Assembly: GCA_030431255.1 (NCBI GenBank)
Contig: JAUIJL010000013.1
Coordinates: 1-64,000 of the forward strand
DNA length: 64,000 nucleotides
Origin: Thermoanaerobaculia bacterium
Lineage (GTDB): Bacteria > Acidobacteriota > Thermoanaerobaculia > Multivoradales > J023
Reading direction: 5' to 3'
Below, piece after piece: positions 41,029-51,128 of this stretch; position 1 is the first letter of the stretch, and each line of letters starts with the position of its first letter. The position numbers and the translations under genes were made by a program. The notes under the pieces were generated by a model. The model had not been told where the DNA came from. It did not search any database and worked only from the letters and a program-made list of their open reading frames with translations.

Positions 41029-42042
41029 TCAAGCCGGCGGTGAGTGGCCCTCCCTGGTTGAGCCGTCTCCATCCCCCAACAACCGACCCAGCACGGCCGG
41101 ATCGATATTGCCGCCGGTGATGAGGATACCCACCTCCTTACAACCGTGAAAAACCCCGGCCATATCGCCCGCCGGCGAGCCTGCCGGTCCGTGCTCCAGC
41201 ACCGCCGCCGTGGCCACGGCCCCCGCTCCTTCCACCAATTGCTTGGCCTCCATGGCCAACAAGCGGATGGCCTGCTCAATGGACGTTTCGGAGACCGACA
41301 ACACGGCGTCCACATGGCTCCGGGCGATCCGCAGGGGTAGGCGTCCCACCTCACGCACGGCCACGCCGTCGGCGAGGGTGCCCGCGGACGCGATCCGCTG
41401 GGGACGTCCGTGGGCCAGGGCCACCTGCAACGACGGCAAAGCCCGTGGCTCGACGGCGATGATCCGAAGATCCGGTCGCATATGACGAGCGGCCACCACC
41501 GCACCGGCCAACAACCCGCCGCCACCGCACGGAACGACCAGCGTGTCGAGCTGGGGCACCTCCTCCAGCAGCTCTCGGACTAGGGTCCCCTGCCCTTCGA
41601 TCACCGCCCGGTGATCGAAAGGAGGCAGAAATACCCTGCCTTCCCGCGCCGCCAGCTGACGAGCCAGCAAGTAGGTTTCGTCGAAATCTCGACCCGCGAC
41701 CCGCACCTCGCCTCCGAATCGGACGATGCGATCGCGTTTGACCTCCGGCGTGCCCTCGGGCACCAACACCAGGGACCGACGTCCCAATAGCGTGGCTCCG
41801 AAGGCGACCCCTTGACCGAAATTCCCCGCCGACGCGGTCACCACATCCACCCGTCGAGCCTTGGCTTCCCGCTCCATGGCGGTCATCGCCGCCAGGGCGC
41901 CTCTCACCTTGAAAGCGCCCGTTTCCTGCAAATTTTCCGCTTTGAGGTGGCAGTGAAACCCCGCCATCTCGGACAGCGCTCTGCAAGATAGAACCGGCGT
42001 GCGGCGCAAAATGCCCGCCAAGCGATCGGCGGCCTGTGCCAC
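41029..42042 (-). CDS. threonine/serine dehydratase (fold-type II PLP enzyme)
   Basis: 337 residues from GTG 42042. The PLP lysine is Lys45 in ETGAFKVRGA, the phosphate-binding loop is CGGGGLLAG and a Ser/Thr-type C-terminal motif appears as LITGGNID. It converts threonine (or serine) to 2-oxobutyrate (or pyruvate) and ammonia. The short form lacks the C-terminal ACT regulatory domain of IlvA, so it resembles catabolic TdcB-type enzymes. It lies just downstream of the ilv operon on the same strand and could feed 2-oxobutyrate to isoleucine synthesis. Both sides carry the palindromic repeat. Confidence 0.87.
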   Translation of the reverse strand: MAQAADRLAGILRRTPVLSCRALSEMAGFHCHLKAENLQETGAFKVRGALAAMTAMEREAKARRVDVVTASAGNFGQGVAFGATLLGRRSLVLVPEGTPEVKRDRIVRFGGEVRVAGRDFDETYLLARQLAAREGRVFLPPFDHRAVIEGQGTLVRELLEEVPQLDTLVVPCGGGGLLAGAVVAARHMRPDLRIIAVEPRALPSLQVALAHGRPQRIASAGTLADGVAVREVGRLPLRIARSHVDAVLSVSETSIEQAIRLLAMEAKQLVEGAGAVATAAVLEHGPAGSPAGDMAGVFHGCKEVGILITGGNIDPAVLGRLLGDGDGSTREGHSPPA

Positions 42043-42300: not shown

Positions 42301-43380
42301 TCAGTGGGCGACGGCTCGGGTTCGGCTCGGCCCGGAAGCGACAGCCACCGGTGAGGTCGAGGTCCCGGCGGATTCGGTGCTTTTTTCGTCCTCGCCCAAG
42401 AAACCCATCATCGAGCGCAATCTGCGACCGACTTCCTCGATGTTGTGCACTTGCTCCTCCGCACGACGGGCTTCGAAACGAGGACGCCCGGCGCGGTTCT
42501 CGTCGATCCAGCCCTTGGCGTAGCGACCCTCCCGGATGTCGGCCAACATGCGTTTCATCTCGGCCTTGGTGTGCTCGCCCACCAGACGAGAGCCGCCTTC
42601 ATATCCACCGTGCTCGGCGGTGTCGGAGACGCTGTGCCACATGGCCGCCAGACCGCCGCGGTACATCAGATCCACGATCAGCTTGAGCTCGTGCAGGCAT
42701 TCGAAATAGGCCACCTCCGGCTGATAGCCGGCCTCCACCAAGGTCTCGTAACCCGCTCGCACCAAGGCGGAGACACCGCCGCAAAGCACGGCTTGCTCGC
42801 CGAAGAGGTCGGTTTCGGTTTCCTCGGAAAAGGTGGTTTCAATCACACCGGCGCGGGTGCAACCCAAGCCCTTAGCGTAGGCCAGAGCGGTCGTGAGCGC
42901 GTGGCCCGAGGCGTCCTGGGCCACCGCCACCAGGGCCGGGGTGCCCTCGCCTTCTTGGTAGAGCTCACGGACCCGGTGACCCGGAGATTTGGGCGCCACC
43001 ATGGCGACGTCGACGAAGGGCGGAGGCTCGATCTCACCGAAACGGATGTTGAATCCGTGGGCGAACATCAGGGTATGACCCGCTTCCAGGTGGGGCTCGA
43101 TCTCCGAGCGATAGATCTCCGCCTGGGCCGTATCCGGGGCCAGGATCATGATGACGTCCGCCGCGGCCGCCGCCTCGGCCACCGACTTGACCTCCAGCCC
43201 CTCGGCAGAAGCCTTGGCGCGGCTGCGGCTGGACTCCGGCAATCCGACGATCACCTCGACACCGCTGTCACGAAGATTCAGCGCATGGGCATGACCTTGG
43301 CTGCCGTAGCCGATCACGGCCACGGTTCGGTTGCTCAAGTTTTCCAGATTTGCGTCTCGGTCGTAATAAAGCGTAGGCAT
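42301..43380 (-). CDS. ilvC: ketol-acid reductoisomerase
   Basis: 359 residues, class I. NADP-binding loop [22 protein letters not shown], Mg-binding acidic residues in [10 protein letters not shown] and the E(L)[11 protein letters not shown] region, and [12 protein letters not shown] near the C-terminus. It reduces and isomerises 2-acetolactate or acetohydroxybutyrate in the branched-chain pathway. About 30 extra C-terminal residues (Ser/Thr/Pro-rich, ending SRTRAVAH) exceed the usual class I length. It is the last ilv gene in this operon, 325 bp after ilvN. Confidence 0.96.
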
Positions 43381-43705: not shown

Positions 43706-44371
43706 CTAACTAGCTTGTTGAGCATCCTTGAGGCGTCGGCGTTGGAGCCAGGACGATTCCTTGCCGTCTCCTTGTAAGACTTGGTTGGCGCGGCCCAGGG
43801 CCACGGGTCCGGTGCGGGCCATTTCGGCGATGCCGAAGGGACGAAGCACTTCCAGGAAACCGGCGATTTTTTCCGCGTCGCCAGTGGTCTCCACGATCAC
43901 CGTCTCTTGGGCCACATCCACGATGCGTCCACGAAAGACCTCGCAGAGCTGGGCGACCTGCGCCCTGGAGGCCGGGTCGACCCGAACCTTGATCAACACC
44001 AGCTCCCGCAGCACCGCCGGCTTCCAAGTCAAATCCTCGACCCGGATGACGTACATCAATCGCTTCAGCTCCCGGGCCAATCGCTGGGCCTCCGTAGGCT
44101 GATCCTCGAGGGTGACCGTCAAGCGGGCGATGTGCGGCTCGTCGGTTTTGCCCACGGTGACCGAGTCGGTGGTGAAATTTCGACGCCGTAGCAGGCTGAC
44201 GGTCTGGCTCAGTAGATCCGGACGATCCTCCACCAAGGCGCTGACGACCGCGCAGCGGCCACCTAAGCCAGGAGCCTTGCTAGTGGGACCGGTGCTACTG
44301 GCACCAGCGCTACTGGGACCGGCGCCACTGGGACCAGTAGTTTGGGGATCCGCGGATTTCGGACTTTCCAT
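43706..44371 (-). CDS. ilvN: acetolactate synthase regulatory (small) subunit
   Basis: 221 residues. An ACT domain follows the N-terminal extension (AVVSALVEDRPDLLSQTVSLLRRRNFTTDSVTVG), then LIKVRVDPASRAQVAQLCEVFRGRIVDV and FLEVLRPFGIAEMARTGPVALGR, the IlvH/IlvN C-terminal domain. It confers valine feedback control on IlvB. The first ~35 residues are an unusual pentapeptide-repeat extension (AGPSS/AGASS/TGPTS). It starts 10 bp after the ilvB stop. Confidence 0.93.
   Translation of the reverse strand: MESPKSADPQTTGPSGAGPSSAGASSTGPTSKAPGLGGRCAVVSALVEDRPDLLSQTVSLLRRRNFTTDSVTVGKTDEPHIARLTVTLEDQPTEAQRLARELKRLMYVIRVEDLTWKPAVLRELVLIKVRVDPASRAQVAQLCEVFRGRIVDVAQETVIVETTGDAEKIAGFLEVLRPFGIAEMARTGPVALGRANQVLQGDGKESSWLQRRRLKDAQQAS
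44279..44338 (-). repeat. four 15-bp tandem units inside ilvN
   Basis: Units at 44279, 44294, 44309 and 44324 (consensus GCTACTGGGACCGGY with small changes) encode the pentapeptides at the IlvN N-terminus. In-frame period 15 means copy-number change would not shift the frame. Confidence 0.75.
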
Positions 44372-44381
44372 GATGGAGCTC

Positions 44382-46088
44382 CTAGGCTTGCTCGAAATCC
44401 GGTCGCGGACGACGGATCATGGCGTCGAGATCGGCCCCGGCCGGCACCATGGGGAAAACGGCATCGTGTTGCTCCACCACCATCTCCACCAGCACCGGAC
44501 CTTGGCGATGGGCCTGGGCCTCCTGGATCGTCGCTTCCAATTGATCGCGCCGGGACACCCGCATGGAGGGGATGCCGAAGGCGGTGGCGATACGACAGAA
44601 ATCGGGGGCAAGCATGGGGGTTTGGTTGTAGCGCTCGTCGTAGAAGAGCTCCTGCCATTGGCGCACCATGCCCAAATAGCCGTTGTTGACAATCGCGATG
44701 TTGATCGCCACGCCTTCTTGCACCGCGGTGGCCAGCTCACACATGGTCATCTGGAATCCGCCGTCACCGACGATCGCCCAGACCTCTTCCTCGGGCCGGG
44801 CCAGCTTGACGCCGATCGCCGCGGGAACCGCATAACCCATGGTGCCCATGCCACCGGAGGTGAAGAGGGTGCCCGGGCGCTGGTGCGGGAAGTACTGCGC
44901 TTCCCACATCTGGTGCTGGCCGACGTCGGTCACGTTGATCACGTCGCCGCCGGTAAAACGCCAAAGAGCGTCCATGACCTCCGCGGCCATGAGGGTCGGG
45001 CCACGACGGGCCCGGCGCAAGATGTCTCGCTCGTCGGCGTCCTGATGCCACATGCCGATTTGGGCCCGCCAAGCGCCGTGACCTTTGGACGGCAACTCCT
45101 CCAACAAGCGCACCAAAACCGGCGCCAGGTCCCCCACCAGCCCCACATCCACCGCCACGTTCTTGCCGATTTCCGCGGCGTCGATATCCACGTGGATTTT
45201 CTTGGAATGGGGGGAATAGGTCGCCAGATTGCCCGTCACCCGATCGTCGAATCGCATGCCCAGGGCGATCAGCAGGTCCGCTTCCTGGATCGCTTGATTC
45301 GAAGCCGCGGTGCCGTGCATGCCCATCATGCCCAGGCAGAGGGGATGCTGCTCGGGAAAAGCGCCCTTGCCGAGCAGGGTCAGCGAAACCGGGATATCGC
45401 AGGTCTCCGCCAGCTTCTTGACCTGGGCTTCCGCGCCCGAGAGCAAGATGCCGTGCCCCGCCAGGATCACCGGCCGATCGGCGGCGCCGATCAGGTCCCG
45501 AGCCTGGTCGAGCAGCTTGGAATCCAGGTCGAGATCCACCTCTCCCGGCAGCCGCAGCTGGAGCTCCGGCCACTGCTCCTCGGTCGACGCCAGCTGCACA
45601 TCCTTGGGGATGTCCACCAACACCGGGCCGGGTCGTCCGCTGCGGGCGACATGAAAAGCCTCTTTGAGCACAAACGGCAGCTCGTCGACCTCCCGCACCA
45701 GGTAGTTGTGCTTAGTGACCGACTCGCTGATACCGACGATGTCGATCTCCTGAAACGCATCCCCACCCAACGCCGTGGTCGGCACTTGGCCGGTGATGCA
45801 CACCATGGGCACCGAGTCCAACATCGCGGTGCCGAGACCGGTCACTAAATTGGTGGCCCCCGGGCCGCTGGTGGCGATCGCCACCCCGACCTTGCCCGAG
45901 GCCCGGGCATAACCGTCGGCCATGTGGGTCGCTCCCTGCTCGTGGCGGGTGAGCACATGGTGGATGCCGGGATATTCGGTCAAGGCATCGTAAGCGGGCA
46001 GGATCGCGCCACCGGGATAACCGAACACCAGGTCCACACCTTCTCGTTCCAAACACTCCCAGATCAGCTGGGCGCCGGTTCTAGACAT
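44382..46088 (-). CDS. ilvB: acetolactate synthase catalytic (large) subunit
   Basis: 568 residues. The thiamine diphosphate enzyme condenses two pyruvates, or pyruvate with 2-oxobutyrate. N-terminal domain has GYPGGAILPAYDAL and the activating Glu in VLTRHEQGATHMADGYAR; the C-terminal cofactor motif is GDGGFQMTMCELATAV...NNGYLGMVRQWQ. Central FAD-binding domain includes GMMGMHGTAASNQAI. Part of the leftward ilv operon between ilvE and ilvN. Confidence 0.97.
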   Translation of the reverse strand: MSRTGAQLIWECLEREGVDLVFGYPGGAILPAYDALTEYPGIHHVLTRHEQGATHMADGYARASGKVGVAIATSGPGATNLVTGLGTAMLDSVPMVCITGQVPTTALGGDAFQEIDIVGISESVTKHNYLVREVDELPFVLKEAFHVARSGRPGPVLVDIPKDVQLASTEEQWPELQLRLPGEVDLDLDSKLLDQARDLIGAADRPVILAGHGILLSGAEAQVKKLAETCDIPVSLTLLGKGAFPEQHPLCLGMMGMHGTAASNQAIQEADLLIALGMRFDDRVTGNLATYSPHSKKIHVDIDAAEIGKNVAVDVGLVGDLAPVLVRLLEELPSKGHGAWRAQIGMWHQDADERDILRRARRGPTLMAAEVMDALWRFTGGDVINVTDVGQHQMWEAQYFPHQRPGTLFTSGGMGTMGYAVPAAIGVKLARPEEEVWAIVGDGGFQMTMCELATAVQEGVAINIAIVNNGYLGMVRQWQELFYDERYNQTPMLAPDFCRIATAFGIPSMRVSRRDQLEATIQEAQAHRQGPVLVEMVVEQHDAVFPMVPAGADLDAMIRRPRPDFEQA

Positions 46089-46129: not shown

Positions 46130-47074
46130 TTAGATAGCCGCTTGCAAGGCCCGTGGGCGCACGTAGCTGAGCCAACGGTGTCGATCTTCGACCTCGCCAT
46201 TGACCAATCGGAAAAACTCCTTCTGCAGCAGCTCCGTCACCGGCCCTCGACGTCCCTCGCCGATGGTCATGCGATCGACGGAACGAACTGGCGTGATCTC
46301 TGCAGCGGTTCCGGTCATGAACAGCTCGTCCGCCAGATAGAGAAAGTCCCGGGAGATCACCGCTTCCCGGATCTCGATTCCGAGGTCTCTCGCCAGCTGC
46401 AAAACCGTGTGGCGGGTGATGCCGGCGAGAATCGAGCTGGACATGGGTGGGGTGAGGATGGCGCCGTCTTTGACCAGGAAGAGATTCTCGCCGCCCCCCT
46501 CGCTGACGTAGCCGTTGGCGTCGAGCACGATGCCCTCTTCGTAGCCGTTGATGCGCGCTTCGGCGGACACGAATTGGTTGTTGACGTATTGACCACCGAT
46601 CTTGCCCAGGGGGGCCATGGTGCCCGAGCCGAACCGCCGCCAAGAGCTGACCGCCGCGTCGACACCGTTCTCCAGGGCGCCCTCTCCGAGATAGGCCCCC
46701 CACTCCATGGAAAGCACGGCTACGGTGACCGGTAGCTTGCGCCCATCGACCCCCAGGCTGCCGACACCACGAAACGCCACGGGACGCAGATAACAGGCCT
46801 GGTGACGATTGCGATCGACGATTTCGCAGCACACCGCTTCGAGCTCCGCTAGATCGTAACCACCGAGATCCATGCGCAGCAGACGGGCTGAGTCGCGCCA
46901 CCGTCGAATGTGGTCACGGAGACGGAAAACCGCCGGTCCGTCCGGGGTCTCGTAGGCCCGAATGCCCTCGAAGACCGACGAGCCGTAGTGCAGGGCGTGG
47001 GCTGAAATATGGACGGTCGCGTCCTGCCATCGGACCCATTCACCATCCATCCAAATCCACTCTGAGGTATTCAT
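46130..47074 (-). CDS. ilvE: branched-chain amino-acid aminotransferase
   Basis: 314 residues, class IV PLP transaminase. Start WMDGEWVRWQDATVHISAHALHYGSSVFEGIRAYET is the IlvE hallmark, with the PLP lysine region in YVNNQFVSAEARINGYEEGIVLDANGYVSEGGGENLFLVKDG and TAAEITPVRSVD. It performs the last step to Val, Leu and Ile. It sits 57 bp after ilvD and 41 bp before ilvB. Confidence 0.96.
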   Translation of the reverse strand: MNTSEWIWMDGEWVRWQDATVHISAHALHYGSSVFEGIRAYETPDGPAVFRLRDHIRRWRDSARLLRMDLGGYDLAELEAVCCEIVDRNRHQACYLRPVAFRGVGSLGVDGRKLPVTVAVLSMEWGAYLGEGALENGVDAAVSSWRRFGSGTMAPLGKIGGQYVNNQFVSAEARINGYEEGIVLDANGYVSEGGGENLFLVKDGAILTPPMSSSILAGITRHTVLQLARDLGIEIREAVISRDFLYLADELFMTGTAAEITPVRSVDRMTIGEGRRGPVTELLQKEFFRLVNGEVEDRHRWLSYVRPRALQAAI

Positions 47075-47131: not shown

Positions 47132-48799
47132 TCAATCCGCGAGCACCGCGCCGGTCGAGGCGCTGGTCACGCACTTGGAATATCGACGCAGCCATCGGCT
47201 GCCCGAGTCGGTTTCGAAAGGTTCGGTATCGCGACGCCTGGCTTCGAGCTCCGACGCATCCAGATCCAGATCCAGACGACGCTGGCCGAGGTCGATGGTG
47301 ATGACGTCGCCGTCGCGGATCCAGGCCAAAGGACCGCCGGCCGCCGCCTCCGGGCTGACGTGACCGATCGACAGGCCACGGCTGCCGCCGGAGAATCTGC
47401 CGTCGGTGACCAGGGCCACCGAGTCTCCAAGGCCAACCCCTTGGATTTGGGCCGTGGGCCCGAGCATTTCCTGCATGCCCGGACCGCCACGGGGCCCCTC
47501 GTAGCGAATCACCACCACTTCCCCAGCCTGAATCTTGCGCGACAGGATGGCCTTGGAGGCGTCTTCCTCGCTGTTGAAGACCCGCGCCGGTCCTTGGTGG
47601 AAGGTCTTGCCACCGACCCCAGCGGTTTTGATCACCGCACCGTCCGGCGCCAGGGAGCCGAATAAGATCGCCAGCCCACCCACCGGCGAGTGGGGATTTT
47701 CGAGAGGCCGAATCACCTCGTGATCCAGCACCGTCGCGCCCGCCAGGTTCTCACCCAGGGTCCGTCCGCTCACCGTGGGACGGTCGAGGTTCAGCAAGGG
47801 CTCGGACCCGCGGGTCAGCTCCGCCAGCACCGCCGACACACCTCCCGCGCGATGGATGTCTTCCATATGCCATTGCCCAGACGGGCTGACCTTGCACAGG
47901 TGCGGCACCTTGGCCGCCACTTGATTGATGCGCTCCAGGGGATACTCGATGCCCGCCTCGTGTGCCAGGGCCAGGGTGTGCAGCACCGTGTTGGTGCTGC
48001 CTCCCATGGCCATGTCGAGGGCAAAGGCGTCGTCGATGGCTTCCGCGGTCACCACCTGACGAGCCGTCAAGTCCCGCTCTACCAATTCCAAGATCTGGGT
48101 GCCCGCCCGACGGTAGAGGGCCTCGCGTTCTTCCGTCTCCGCGAGAATGGAGCCATTGCCGGGGAGGGCCAATCCCAGCGCCTCGCACAGGCAATTCATG
48201 CTGTTGGCGGTGAACATGCCCGAGCAGGAGCCACAGGTGGGGCAACCGAAGCTCTCCAACGTCTTGAGCCGCTCGGCGTCGATCTTTCCCGCTTTGAACG
48301 CCCCGACTCCCTCGAAGACCGACACCAAGTCGATCTTCTCGCCGTCCGGCGTCACCCCGGCGGCCATCGGCCCACCGGAGACGAAGATCGTCGGGATGTC
48401 GAGGCGCATGGCGGCCATCAACATGCCCGGCACGATCTTGTCGCAATTGGGGATGCACACCATGCCGTCGAATGCGTGGGCGGCGACCACGGTCTCCACG
48501 GAATCGGCGATCAGCTCCCGGCTGGGCAGGGAATAATTCATGCCGCGGTGGCCCATGGCAATGCCGTCGTCGACACCGATGGTGTTGAATTCGAAGGGCA
48601 CACCCCCCGCTTCGCGGATGGCCTCCTTGACCACGCCTCCCACCCGCTGCAGATGTCGATGTCCCGGGATGATGTCGATATAGCTGTTGCACACAGCGAT
48701 GAACGGCTTGCCCATGTCGGCGTCGGCAACGCCGGTAGCTCTCAGCAGAGCTCGATGGGGGGCCCGTTCAAAGCCCTTTTTGATTCGATCCGATCGCAT
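47132..48799 (-). CDS. ilvD: dihydroxy-acid dehydratase
   Basis: 555 residues. Fe-S cluster cysteines lie in [12 protein letters not shown] and in [19 protein letters not shown]; the C-terminal half has [31 protein letters not shown] and [24 protein letters not shown]. It dehydrates 2,3-dihydroxy-3-methylvalerate and -isovalerate. It is the first structural gene of the operon and lies 58 bp downstream of the second attenuator hairpin, so its expression should depend on that read-through. Confidence 0.97.
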
Positions 48800-48855
48800 G
48801 ATGTCTCCGCCCGCATCGGGGCTTGAATGCTGAGATTGGGAACGTCTAGATACTG

Positions 48856-48881
48856 AAAAACCCCCGGTTTCCCGGGGGTTT
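48856..48881 (-). terminator. attenuator terminator 2, directly before ilvD
   Basis: On the minus strand AAACCCCCGG-GAAA-CCGGGGGTTT forms a 10-bp stem with a GAAA tetraloop, continuing into a T-run (TTTTT before CAG). CCGGGGGT at about 48905-48912, just after the leader stop, is complementary to the upstream arm (ACCCCCGG), giving a competing antiterminator pairing. A small AGATC-AGC-GATCT hairpin lies between. Confidence 0.85.
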
Positions 48882-48913
48882 GCAAAGATCGCTGATCTAA
48901 AATCTACCCCCGG

Positions 48914-49141
48914 TTAAGCGCCGCTGCCGATAAGCTCGATAATGACGACGTTGACGACGACTAGGACGCTTAGAAGAACCGGTACGAGCACCACGAGTCG
49001 CGGCAAACCCGCGGCAAGATCATTCCCAACCTTCCCAAGGGCAGAGACTTCCGCCCGCACGATGCCTCTCCGGCCGGCATGGGCCTGAGCATCGGATCCC
49101 GCAAGGGAAAATGGATGATGGGGGAAGTGGGAATAGGTCAT
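48914..49141 (-). CDS. ilv leader peptide 2 (branched-chain codon run)
   Basis: Frame of 75 codons from ATG 49141. The C-terminus is a dense branched-chain segment (LVVLVPVLLSVLVVV, NVVIIELI, then GSGA stop): 19 of 23 residues are Val, Leu or Ile. Stalling on these codons when charged tRNA is scarce would leave the segment after the stop free to pair with the terminator arm. The stop codon abuts CCGGGGG, the antiterminator segment. The upstream start is weakly supported (GAGCTCGACAAAC before ATG), and a shorter product is possible. E. coli ilvL behaves in the same way (family knowledge). Confidence 0.75.
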   Translation of the reverse strand: MTYSHFPHHPFSLAGSDAQAHAGRRGIVRAEVSALGKVGNDLAAGLPRLVVLVPVLLSVLVVVNVVIIELIGSGA

Positions 49142-49224
49142 GTTTGTCGAGCTCGTAGATTCTTGGGGATACCGCTAGGGATACTTCGCTTCGTTCTGAC
49201 CGCCCTCAGCGGCTATGACGCAGG

Positions 49225-49253
49225 ATTATCGGGGCGCCTGCCCGAGCTGTCAA
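49225..49253 (-). promoter_or_regulatory. sigma-70-type promoter P2 for leader 2
   Basis: On the minus strand TTGACA (49248-49253) and GATAAT (49225-49230) are separated by 17 bp, essentially consensus. The expected start is about 7-10 bases downstream, some 75 bp before leader 2. Confidence 0.8.
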
Positions 49254-49358
49254 CCTGATTCAAACCATTTTCGGAATTTTTATTTTCGGCCCCTAAAAAT
49301 ACTTTATTTGCACCATAGATTCAGCCTCCGCAGCGCCTGGGCAATGTGCGCTTCGCCC

Positions 49359-49378
49359 AAGATGCCGATCGGCATCTT
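49359..49378. repeat. 20-bp perfect palindrome between the two attenuator modules
   Basis: AAGATGCC-GATC-GGCATCTT, followed on the plus strand by TT. It could be an operator or a short terminator for read-through from module 1. Confidence 0.6.
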
Positions 49379-49430
49379 TTATCCTGAACGGTTGTCTTGA
49401 TCGACTTTCCGAACGGATGCTTCGAGCATC

Positions 49431-49456
49431 AAAAAAGCCCCCGGTTTCCCGGGGGC
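49431..49456 (-). terminator. attenuator terminator 1 (upstream module)
   Basis: On the minus strand GCCCCCGG-GAAA-CCGGGGGC forms an 8-bp stem with a GAAA loop followed by TTTTTT. The leader 1 end contains GGGGGCTTTTGAT, which mimics the downstream arm and can pair with GCCCCC, as an antiterminator. Same loop and core as terminator 2. Confidence 0.87.
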
Positions 49457-49490
49457 CTTCGATCTCGTTCGCTGGTTTCGCGTACGCCGA

Positions 49491-49700
49491 TCAAAAGCCC
49501 CCAATGCCGGTAATAAGGACGAGGACGAGGCATACGACGACACCGATCGCACGGGTGTGCACAACAGCGCACAGCTCGGAGGCAAACGGCGCGGACATTC
49601 CCGCAGTGCGTTCGGCACGGCTGGCCGGCAGCCGGCGTTCCGACGATCCGGCGTCCGGCGCCCCGGCGATCCGTGGTTGCAGCTGGTTCTCGCGACTCAT
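49491..49700 (-). CDS. ilv leader peptide 1 (branched-chain codon run)
   Basis: ATG 49700 begins MSRENQLQPRI; another in-frame ATG is at 49598 (MSAPFASELC). The end is CAVVHTRAIGVVVCLVLVLI followed by TGIGGF and a stop, again a Val/Leu/Ile run (codons GTC GTC GTA TGC CTC GTC CTC GTC CTT ATT). The stop is inside the antiterminator segment GGGGGCTTTTGA. The ATG at 49700 lies only ~10 bases after the -10 of P1, so this could be a nearly leaderless message; the shorter start remains possible. The region is about 290 bp upstream of P2 and shares the second module's design. Confidence 0.7.
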   Translation of the reverse strand: MSRENQLQPRIAGAPDAGSSERRLPASRAERTAGMSAPFASELCAVVHTRAIGVVVCLVLVLITGIGGF

Positions 49701-49709
49701 AGTGGCAAA

Positions 49710-49739
49710 ATTATGGGCAGCCGGCCCCGGGACTGTCAA
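49710..49739 (-). promoter_or_regulatory. sigma-70-type promoter P1 for leader 1
   Basis: On the minus strand TTGACA (49734-49739) and CATAAT (49710-49715) are 18 bp apart. Transcription would begin near 49703, at the start of leader 1. Confidence 0.75.
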
Positions 49740-49841
49740 CGGTCGACGGTCACCCTTCTGTCACGCCACGCTCATGGTCACACTCCCGATCATGGATCCA
49801 ACGGAGGAAAGCTGTCGATCCGTCTCAAATTCTTGTTATAA

Positions 49842-50939
49842 ATGAGACCCGAGATACGCCGCTCAACGACATGTTTGGGGGACAGAGCCGAATCCCGTGT
49901 CGAACAGGCCGTCTCGGTGCCGTCTCCGAAAAGGAAGGCCGTCTCGAAAAGACCGTCCCGAGAGGATTGCGCGACCGTGACCACCGACGAATCGACAGCG
50001 ATCGAAACCAGCCCGCACATCCAAGTGGGCTTGTCCTTCCCCGATCGAGACGTGTCGAGAATCCAGTATTCAATCTGTCGCAAGATCCACCGTCATACCG
50101 CCTTCGAGCAGAGCCTGGGATTCGTCTTGGATCCATCCACCGAGGTGGCAACGGTCGAGCTCCATCTCGACGATACACCGCACGTCTATTTCGCCAGCCT
50201 GTCCGGGCGCCCTATCGTTCATTGGCTGGATCCCTTTAGCCGCGACAGCATCGACGCGCCCGAAGAGGTGGAATACCGGTTGGAGAACGGCGGTAGAAGC
50301 CTCGTGGTTCAGTGGCGACCGAGCGAGAAGACCGCCGCCAACGGCCGGTTGTTGGCCGCGGAGCTCAAGCATGAACGAAGCGGCACCAAGAATTGGGCAT
50401 ATGTCGGCATGCGCGTGCGCAAAGGCGAGGCACCGCGCCTGACCTTCCAACACCCACCGACCCGCAACCCGCTCACCGAGACCATGCAGATTCTGCCGGT
50501 GACGGTCAACTTCGCGGACGGCGACCTGCAGCGACCGATCTACACCAATATCTTCGACTACTCCCAGCTGCCGGCGGGGGTAGATCTGGACCTCGCGCTG
50601 GTGGTCAATCAGCGCCAAGCCCCACCTTTCTGCTTTGAGTTTCACATCACCGAGCCGGGGGTGAGCTTCCACCCTTGCGGCGATGAGCACGACCAAGTGC
50701 TGGTCCGTTTCGTCGAAAGCAAGACCGGAGAGCTTTTGGAGACCCCGCCCGAGAGCTTTCACGCCTGCCGTCTCTACGACCGCAGAACTTGTCACGTGGA
50801 ATGGCGTCCCCTCGAGGAGCATGAAGCCGGCTCGGGAGACCTTTGGGTCTCTACCTTCCACCTCAAAGCCCTGCACGCCCGCAGCGGCCAAGACGCCCAA
50901 ATCTCTCCCCGGATCATCCACACCCCCTCCGTCGGCTAG
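49842..50939 (+). CDS. hypothetical protein with two internally similar domains
   Basis: 365 residues from ATG 49842; a GTG at 49977 after AGAGGA is an equally plausible start, since the first 45 residues are low-complexity and TATAAA at the extreme 5' end could be a -10. Two halves look alike: SLVVQWRPSEKTAANGRLLAAELKHERSG and CHVEWRPLEEHEAGSGDLWVSTFHLKALHARSG, each ending a beta-rich region. No signal peptide or membrane segment is seen. Family not recognised. Divergent from the ilv leaders. Confidence 0.7.
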   Translation: MRPEIRRSTTCLGDRAESRVEQAVSVPSPKRKAVSKRPSREDCATVTTDESTAIETSPHIQVGLSFPDRDVSRIQYSICRKIHRHTAFEQSLGFVLDPSTEVATVELHLDDTPHVYFASLSGRPIVHWLDPFSRDSIDAPEEVEYRLENGGRSLVVQWRPSEKTAANGRLLAAELKHERSGTKNWAYVGMRVRKGEAPRLTFQHPPTRNPLTETMQILPVTVNFADGDLQRPIYTNIFDYSQLPAGVDLDLALVVNQRQAPPFCFEFHITEPGVSFHPCGDEHDQVLVRFVESKTGELLETPPESFHACRLYDRRTCHVEWRPLEEHEAGSGDLWVSTFHLKALHARSGQDAQISPRIIHTPSVG

Positions 50940-51128
50940 AGACTAGACGGCCCGTCGCGCAAACCGATCCTCTGGCCGTGCCGTAAGCACCGTCGATTGC
51001 TTGACAGGGCTCCCTTTTCGGAAACCTCCGCCGGCCCGGTAGCATCCTAGATGCAATCACTCCCGTCTTCTGCCCCTCGCAATAGGGTCGGACCCAGCAC
51101 CCGCACGCAGATGGAGACCCCATAGCCC

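Follow-up and report, generated by a model that had tools for sequence, protein, structure and literature searches.

The window, by which we mean the whole 64,000-nucleotide stretch analysed, carries genes for valine, leucine and isoleucine biosynthesis in the order ilvD-ilvE-ilvB-ilvN-ilvC-ilvA-like. Upstream of these genes there are two complete putative stalled-ribosome switches, each with its own promoter. The features, in the direction of transcription, are as follows:

49710–49739, minus strand: P1, sigma-70-type promoter (TTGACA-18-CATAAT), 11 of 12 consensus bases
49491–49700, minus strand: leader ORF 1, 69 aa, C-terminal end IGVVVCLVLVLITGIGGF before the stop codon; ATG 9 nt past the −10 box
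49489–49504, minus strand: antiterminator segment 1, TTGGGGGCTTTTGATC, overlapping the stop codon of leader 1
49431–49464, minus strand: terminator T1 (5′ arm, GAAA loop, 3′ arm, T-tract), hairpin of −23.6 kcal/mol
49225–49253, minus strand: P2, sigma-70-type promoter (TTGACA-17-GATAAT), 11 of 12 consensus bases
48914–49141, minus strand: leader ORF 2, 75 aa, C-terminal end LVVLVPVLLSVLVVVNVVIIELIGSGA before the stop codon; ATG 83 nt past the −10 box
48906–48913, minus strand: antiterminator segment 2, CCGGGGGT, immediately 3′ of the stop codon of leader 2
48856–48881, minus strand: terminator T2 (5′ arm, GAAA loop, 3′ arm, T-tract), hairpin of −19.3 kcal/mol
47132–48799, minus strand: ilvD, dihydroxy-acid dehydratase, first structural gene (TIGR00110, 798.5 bits, above cut-off)
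46130–47074, minus strand: ilvE, branched-chain aminotransferase (TIGR01122, above cut-off)
44382–46088, minus strand: ilvB, acetolactate synthase large subunit (TIGR00118, above cut-off)
43706–44371, minus strand: ilvN, acetolactate synthase small subunit (TIGR00119, above cut-off)
42301–43380, minus strand: ilvC, ketol-acid reductoisomerase (TIGR00465, above cut-off)
41029–42042, minus strand: ilvA/tdcB-like threonine dehydratase (the listed models match with scores under their cut-offs)

The earlier note had placed two promoter, leader and attenuator modules before ilvD, and both promoters, both ORF ends rich in Val, Leu and Ile (V/L/I), both antiterminators and both hairpins were indeed found. 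V/L/I account for 13 of the last 25 codons of leader 1 (ATG at 49700, stop codon at 49491; 69 codons) and for 17 of the last 25 of leader 2 (ATG at 49141, stop codon at 48914; 75 codons). Antiterminator 1 (49504–49489) pairs with 49464–49449 through 16 bp, including four G-U pairs, and antiterminator 2 (48913–48906) with 48879–48872 through 8 bp. The partner in each case is the 5′ arm of the terminator, T1 or T2, and each module holds two mutually exclusive pairings, antiterminator versus terminator. The two hairpins have the 18-base core CCCCCGGGAAACCGGGGG in common, as had been claimed; the exact core occurs in the 10.2-Mb assembly only twice, at T1 and at T2.

T1 is strong, and the stretch from T1 to P2 is without any gene. 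Adjoining P2 on its upstream side (49254–49300) is an AT-rich segment in which CCGAAAAT is repeated and which may serve as an UP element or bind a regulator. The 83 nt between the −10 box of P2 and the ATG of leader 2 (49142–49224) contain, by eye, GC-rich inverted segments, and contrast with the near-leaderless modules of relatives. On the upstream side of the modules there is also a divergent ORF of 365 codons (49842–50939), with neither an NCBIfam match (E up to 1e-5) nor a Pfam match (E up to 1).

Promoter-like sites with at least 9 of 12 consensus bases numbered four in 48000–50500, whereas 50 shuffles averaged 0.6. When both strands (2 × 64 kb) were scanned jointly for a terminator, a complementary upstream segment and a V/L/I-rich ORF end, modules 1 and 2 were found and no others in the window; 12 dinucleotide-shuffled windows gave one weak module and no strong one. 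A chance origin of the modules was rejected on the promoter count, the unique core and the joint scan compared with its shuffles. It may be noted that a standard terminator scan listed no terminators here, against 2.2 in shuffles, yet T1 and T2 were both recovered by the joint scan and by folding; we suppose that the standard scan missed them because the stem runs on into the T-tract. Rfam covariance models gave no match at gathering score in 47500–51000. The only match up to an E-value of 1 in that stretch was to sX12 (23.9 bits, gathering score 106, E = 0.32), which is taken as chance; a described Rfam element was rejected, this one match being far under its gathering score.

Modules with two exclusive pairings recur in relatives

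The same type of ilvD, defined by E ≤ 1e-160, was found in 10 of the 148 genomes of the class, including that of the window (G000). The upstream regions of ilvD in class relatives were checked for the two modules, as the earlier note had proposed, and G001, of the same genus (ilvD 73% identical), has two such modules. They lie immediately upstream of ilvD on one contig, its P1 having 8 of 12 consensus bases only. In G005, from another genus of the same family, contig C35 carries one module (C) before ilvD and begins 180 nt upstream, while contig C347 carries a similar pair, A and B, behind an ilvE-like gene and stops inside the terminator of B. The end of C347 and the start of C35 do not overlap; the last 13 bases of C347 have one copy on another contig, C249, in an unrelated place. 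With these contig breaks, the modules of G005 therefore form either one triple array, A-B-C, or two separate loci.

One module each was seen in seven other relatives of the class (G100, G134, G135, G140, G142, G143 and G147), with 600–1000 nt examined; that of G100 was poorly resolved, with a weak antiterminator. Because the modules of G134, G135 and G100 were missed at the first survey thresholds and found by eye and with looser settings, a second module of their kind farther upstream could likewise have been overlooked. G003 and G006, of the same family, have one module upstream of a more distant ilvD, and in G002 and G004 no ilvD match was obtained. A tree of ilvD with 45 rows placed G000, G001 and G005 in one clade (100/100). 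The pair may have its origin in a single duplication.

Both leader and terminator were resolved in 14 of 16 modules. Relative to the stop codon, the antiterminator of 12 of them starts between −14 and +3 nt, and that of G134 and G135 at −18 nt. The antiterminator pairings vary in sequence, for example TGGGCCGTTTTC × GAAAACGGCCCG in G003.

Likeness between modules was expressed as Z scores against mononucleotide shuffles, which favour likeness. By this measure A of G005 scored 14.8 with module 1 of G000 and 8.8 with module 1 of G001; B of G005 scored 8.5 with module 2 of G001, 6.0 with module 1 of G000 and 2.0 with module 2 of G000. Module 1 of G000 gave 7.6 and 7.8 with modules 1 and 2 of G001, respectively, module 2 of G000 gave 7.2 with module 2 of G001, and modules 1 and 2 of one genome scored 7.0 in G000 and 7.2 in G001. 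The first modules and A of G005 look akin. For the second modules and B, the CGATAATCC context at the −10 box, which by eye is common to P2, module 2 of G001 and B of G005, seems a better sign of kinship than the Z score. Since the likeness scores are mixed, the pair in G005 is termed similar, not orthologous.

Among 26 further ilvD-family loci of G000 and relatives in its order (27 were fetched, the partial locus L027 being excluded; three upstream stretches are shorter than 200 nt), a module was present in two, those of G003 and G006. A script flagged 10 of 79 ilvD loci from GTDB (of 80, L106 was excluded; several upstream stretches are short), some of which look like chance, e.g. L034, L051, L055 and L066, and two terminators were found in none.

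When the pattern GGGGG-N22..52-CCCCCGG-N3..8-CCGGGGG was searched in G000 (10.2 Mb), the three matches were both ilv modules and leuA, and the reversed control gave none. Matches were obtained in 30 of the 148 genomes of the class and in 52 of 396 genomes of the phylum. Several of the class-wide matches that were read are, by eye, not attenuators (in G002 and G103, for instance, they adjoin tRNA-like sequence). One genome, G216, had 43 matches; these are probably a repeat element, since they are near-identical among the matches listed.

Upstream of leuA, a Leu-containing module was present in G000, G005, G003 and G006, with an antiterminator match of just 5–6 nt in the last three; in G001 no module was found upstream of leuA, which is preceded by an ilvE-like gene. 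The leuA module of G000 (L184 from 1742; G000:C37:131241-131307) has its own leader, ending in AAFLLLVSLLLIEPIVPGVT before the stop codon, and the same terminator type. At L175 (G013:C322) and L176 (G020:C54) the same pattern accompanies Leu-rich leaders whose last residues before the stop codon are PGAT; the gene after L176, and possibly that after L175, is leuA-like by eye. At L177 (G102:C336:28585-28649) and L178 (G100:C151:3128-3189), V/L/I leaders and the pattern stand immediately before ilvB, not ilvD. A Met/Thr-rich leader, MLTGTLMTPMMITTTPTSTGAI before its stop codon, has the same attenuator pattern at L170 of G005 (from 1654; G005:C70:1654-1720), where the following gene is aspartokinase-like by eye.

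Leader starts, folding and the proposed mechanism

The distance from the −10 box of the best promoter to the ATG was 8–12 nt in 8 of 13 modules and 17 nt in three, while it was 29 nt for B of G005 and 83 nt for module 2 of G000; G003, G006 and C of G005, with uncertain starts, are excluded from this count. The short distance in 8 of 13 suggests that many leaders are leaderless or nearly so. Leader 1 is probably such a case, as its ATG lies 9 nt past the −10 box. In Corynebacterium glutamicum ilvBNC a near-leaderless leader start has been mapped, the transcription start and the start codon of the leader being one nucleotide apart (excerpts of PMC11857589), and leaderless or nearly leaderless leaders are reported for Streptomyces lividans (excerpts of PMC8079986).

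Equilibrium folds were computed for the RNA not covered by a ribosome placed at the leader stop or at set codons before it. For module 1, a ribosome at the stop codon or at −4 or −6 codons gave the terminator, and one at −8, −10, −14 or −18 the antiterminator. For module 2, the terminator formed with the ribosome at the stop codon and at −6, −8, −10 and −14; no positions but −4 and −18 gave the antiterminator. Folding of the complete, untranslated leader gave the antiterminator in module 1 and the terminator in module 2. Hence the two modules are not alike by folding: the predicted switch is clean for module 1 and ambiguous for module 2.

Both modules have an ORF with a V/L/I run, a terminator before the structural gene and an antiterminator that excludes it, and in both the antiterminator sits in a place that a ribosome on the leader stop would cover. 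When charged tRNA is ample, a ribosome at the leader stop would mask the G-rich antiterminator segment and the terminator would form. If Val-, Leu- or Ile-tRNA ran short, the ribosome would stall in the upstream codon run, the G-rich segment could pair with the 5′ arm of the terminator, and transcription would continue. In the serial layout, transcripts from P1 would pass T1 and then T2, and those from P2 T2 only. P2 would thus give a graded response to shortage; P1 would give a steeper one, the product of two read-through probabilities, with extra output at strong starvation. Promoter use, leader translation, stalling and this serial logic are what we infer from the anatomy. We put at about 0.8 the probability that the locus holds two serial, separately promoted, ribosome-mediated transcription attenuators for branched-chain amino acids, P1 responding more steeply and P2 in a graded manner. 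Counting against it are the folds of module 2, the low match of P1 in G001, the standard terminator scan that listed none and the mixed likeness of modules between genomes. In S. coelicolor, moreover, ilvB was unaffected when candidate regulatory codons upstream of it were changed (cited in PMC1262725, excerpts). More tentative, and well short of even odds, is the general proposal that a serial array of separately promoted leader-peptide attenuators, each sensing the same amino-acid family (two units in one genus, perhaps three in another genus of the bacterial family), acts as a multiplicative starvation amplifier.

The earlier note had also suggested that the two leaders differ in codon sensitivity. 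This was not supported: in G000, G001 and G005, both leaders contain codons for all three amino acids, in similar proportions, and a difference in amino-acid specificity was rejected on this ground. What stood of that reading were the serial modules before the ilv genes, a second genome of the genus having them and a similar pair in another genus of the family; the two start sites and a termination response to branched-chain amino acids are predictions.

The strength of T1 and the geneless stretch between T1 and P2 are also consistent with control of the ilv genes by module 2 alone, module 1 mainly yielding a small terminated transcript, or a peptide, with a role in trans. A precedent for a trans-acting leader peptide is reported from Sinorhizobium meliloti, in the leader peptide of trp (excerpts of PMC7298713). 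However, when leader 1 of G000 was compared by eye with that of G001, the N-terminal parts looked dissimilar, with the V/L/I run and the antiterminator kept; a codon sensor in cis therefore fits module 1 better, and we regard a trans-acting module 1 as unlikely. Quite unlikely, too, is ordinary attenuation by module 2 alone, module 1 being a duplicate in decay. The single module in the seven class relatives and the poor P1 of G001 speak for such decay, but module 1 is intact in both G000 and G001, A of G005 resembles module 1 of G000, and P1 of G000 retains 11 of 12 consensus bases.

The long hydrophobic runs of both leaders might instead be transmembrane helices of short membrane proteins, a possibility that we consider very improbable and rejected on residue composition compared with controls and on the lack of a Pfam match (E up to 1); the near-constant position of the stop codon relative to the antiterminator speaks against it as well. 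When the 15-mer of highest hydrophobicity was taken from each of 11 leaders (of 16, excluding C of G005, G135, G100, G003 and G006), V/L/I averaged 12.1, compared with 8.5 in 21 controls (p = 2e-5, related leaders not being independent), and F, A, M, W, Y and C together 0.7 per 15-mer, compared with 4.3. The controls were drawn from ORFs of at least 300 codons in any frame, and some may thus be non-genes. A second composition comparison agreed in direction, but its leader segments were preselected for V/L/I.

Relation to known systems and significance

The enteric ilv, leu, trp and his attenuators have leader peptides that carry control codons, antiterminator and terminator structures that exclude each other, and a biosynthetic operon downstream, and the serial attenuators proposed here resemble them in all three respects. 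To our knowledge, enteric ribosome-mediated attenuators have one module per operon. Here there are two, each behind a promoter of its own, with the antiterminator segment at the stop codon. The unusual feature is that two separately promoted units in series would sense the same amino acids.

Among other systems, C. glutamicum ilvBNC also has an Ile/Val/Leu leader upstream of ilv genes, but it is described with a single leader and a three-hairpin model (excerpts of PMC11857589). Two short ORFs in series, mgtM and mgtP, occur in one leader in Salmonella mgtCBR, where the signals are two, ATP and proline-tRNA, and the stem-loops are unlike intrinsic terminators (excerpts of PMC3641672). Here, by codon content, one amino-acid family is addressed and the terminators are intrinsic; a second promoter, present here, is not noted for mgtCBR in those excerpts. 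The two modules are likewise in series, their codon content giving no hint of different signals. The tandem riboswitches of Bacillus clausii metE also place two sites of the intrinsic-terminator type serially on one leader, but they sense directly by RNA and have no leader peptide (excerpts of PMC3641672). The literature matches listed, subscription papers being outside the scope, included no case of leader-peptide attenuators in tandem that serve a single amino-acid family; the earlier note had regarded a duplicated ilv attenuator set in an Acidobacteriota-like genome as, to its knowledge, not described.

If the reading as two serial attenuators is true, the textbook attenuator can be stacked, with a promoter for each copy, to shape the answer of an operon to one kind of signal, and the reason for keeping a second sensor for the same amino acids becomes directly testable. 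More broadly, the findings suggest that attenuation by leader peptides is common in this class of bacteria.
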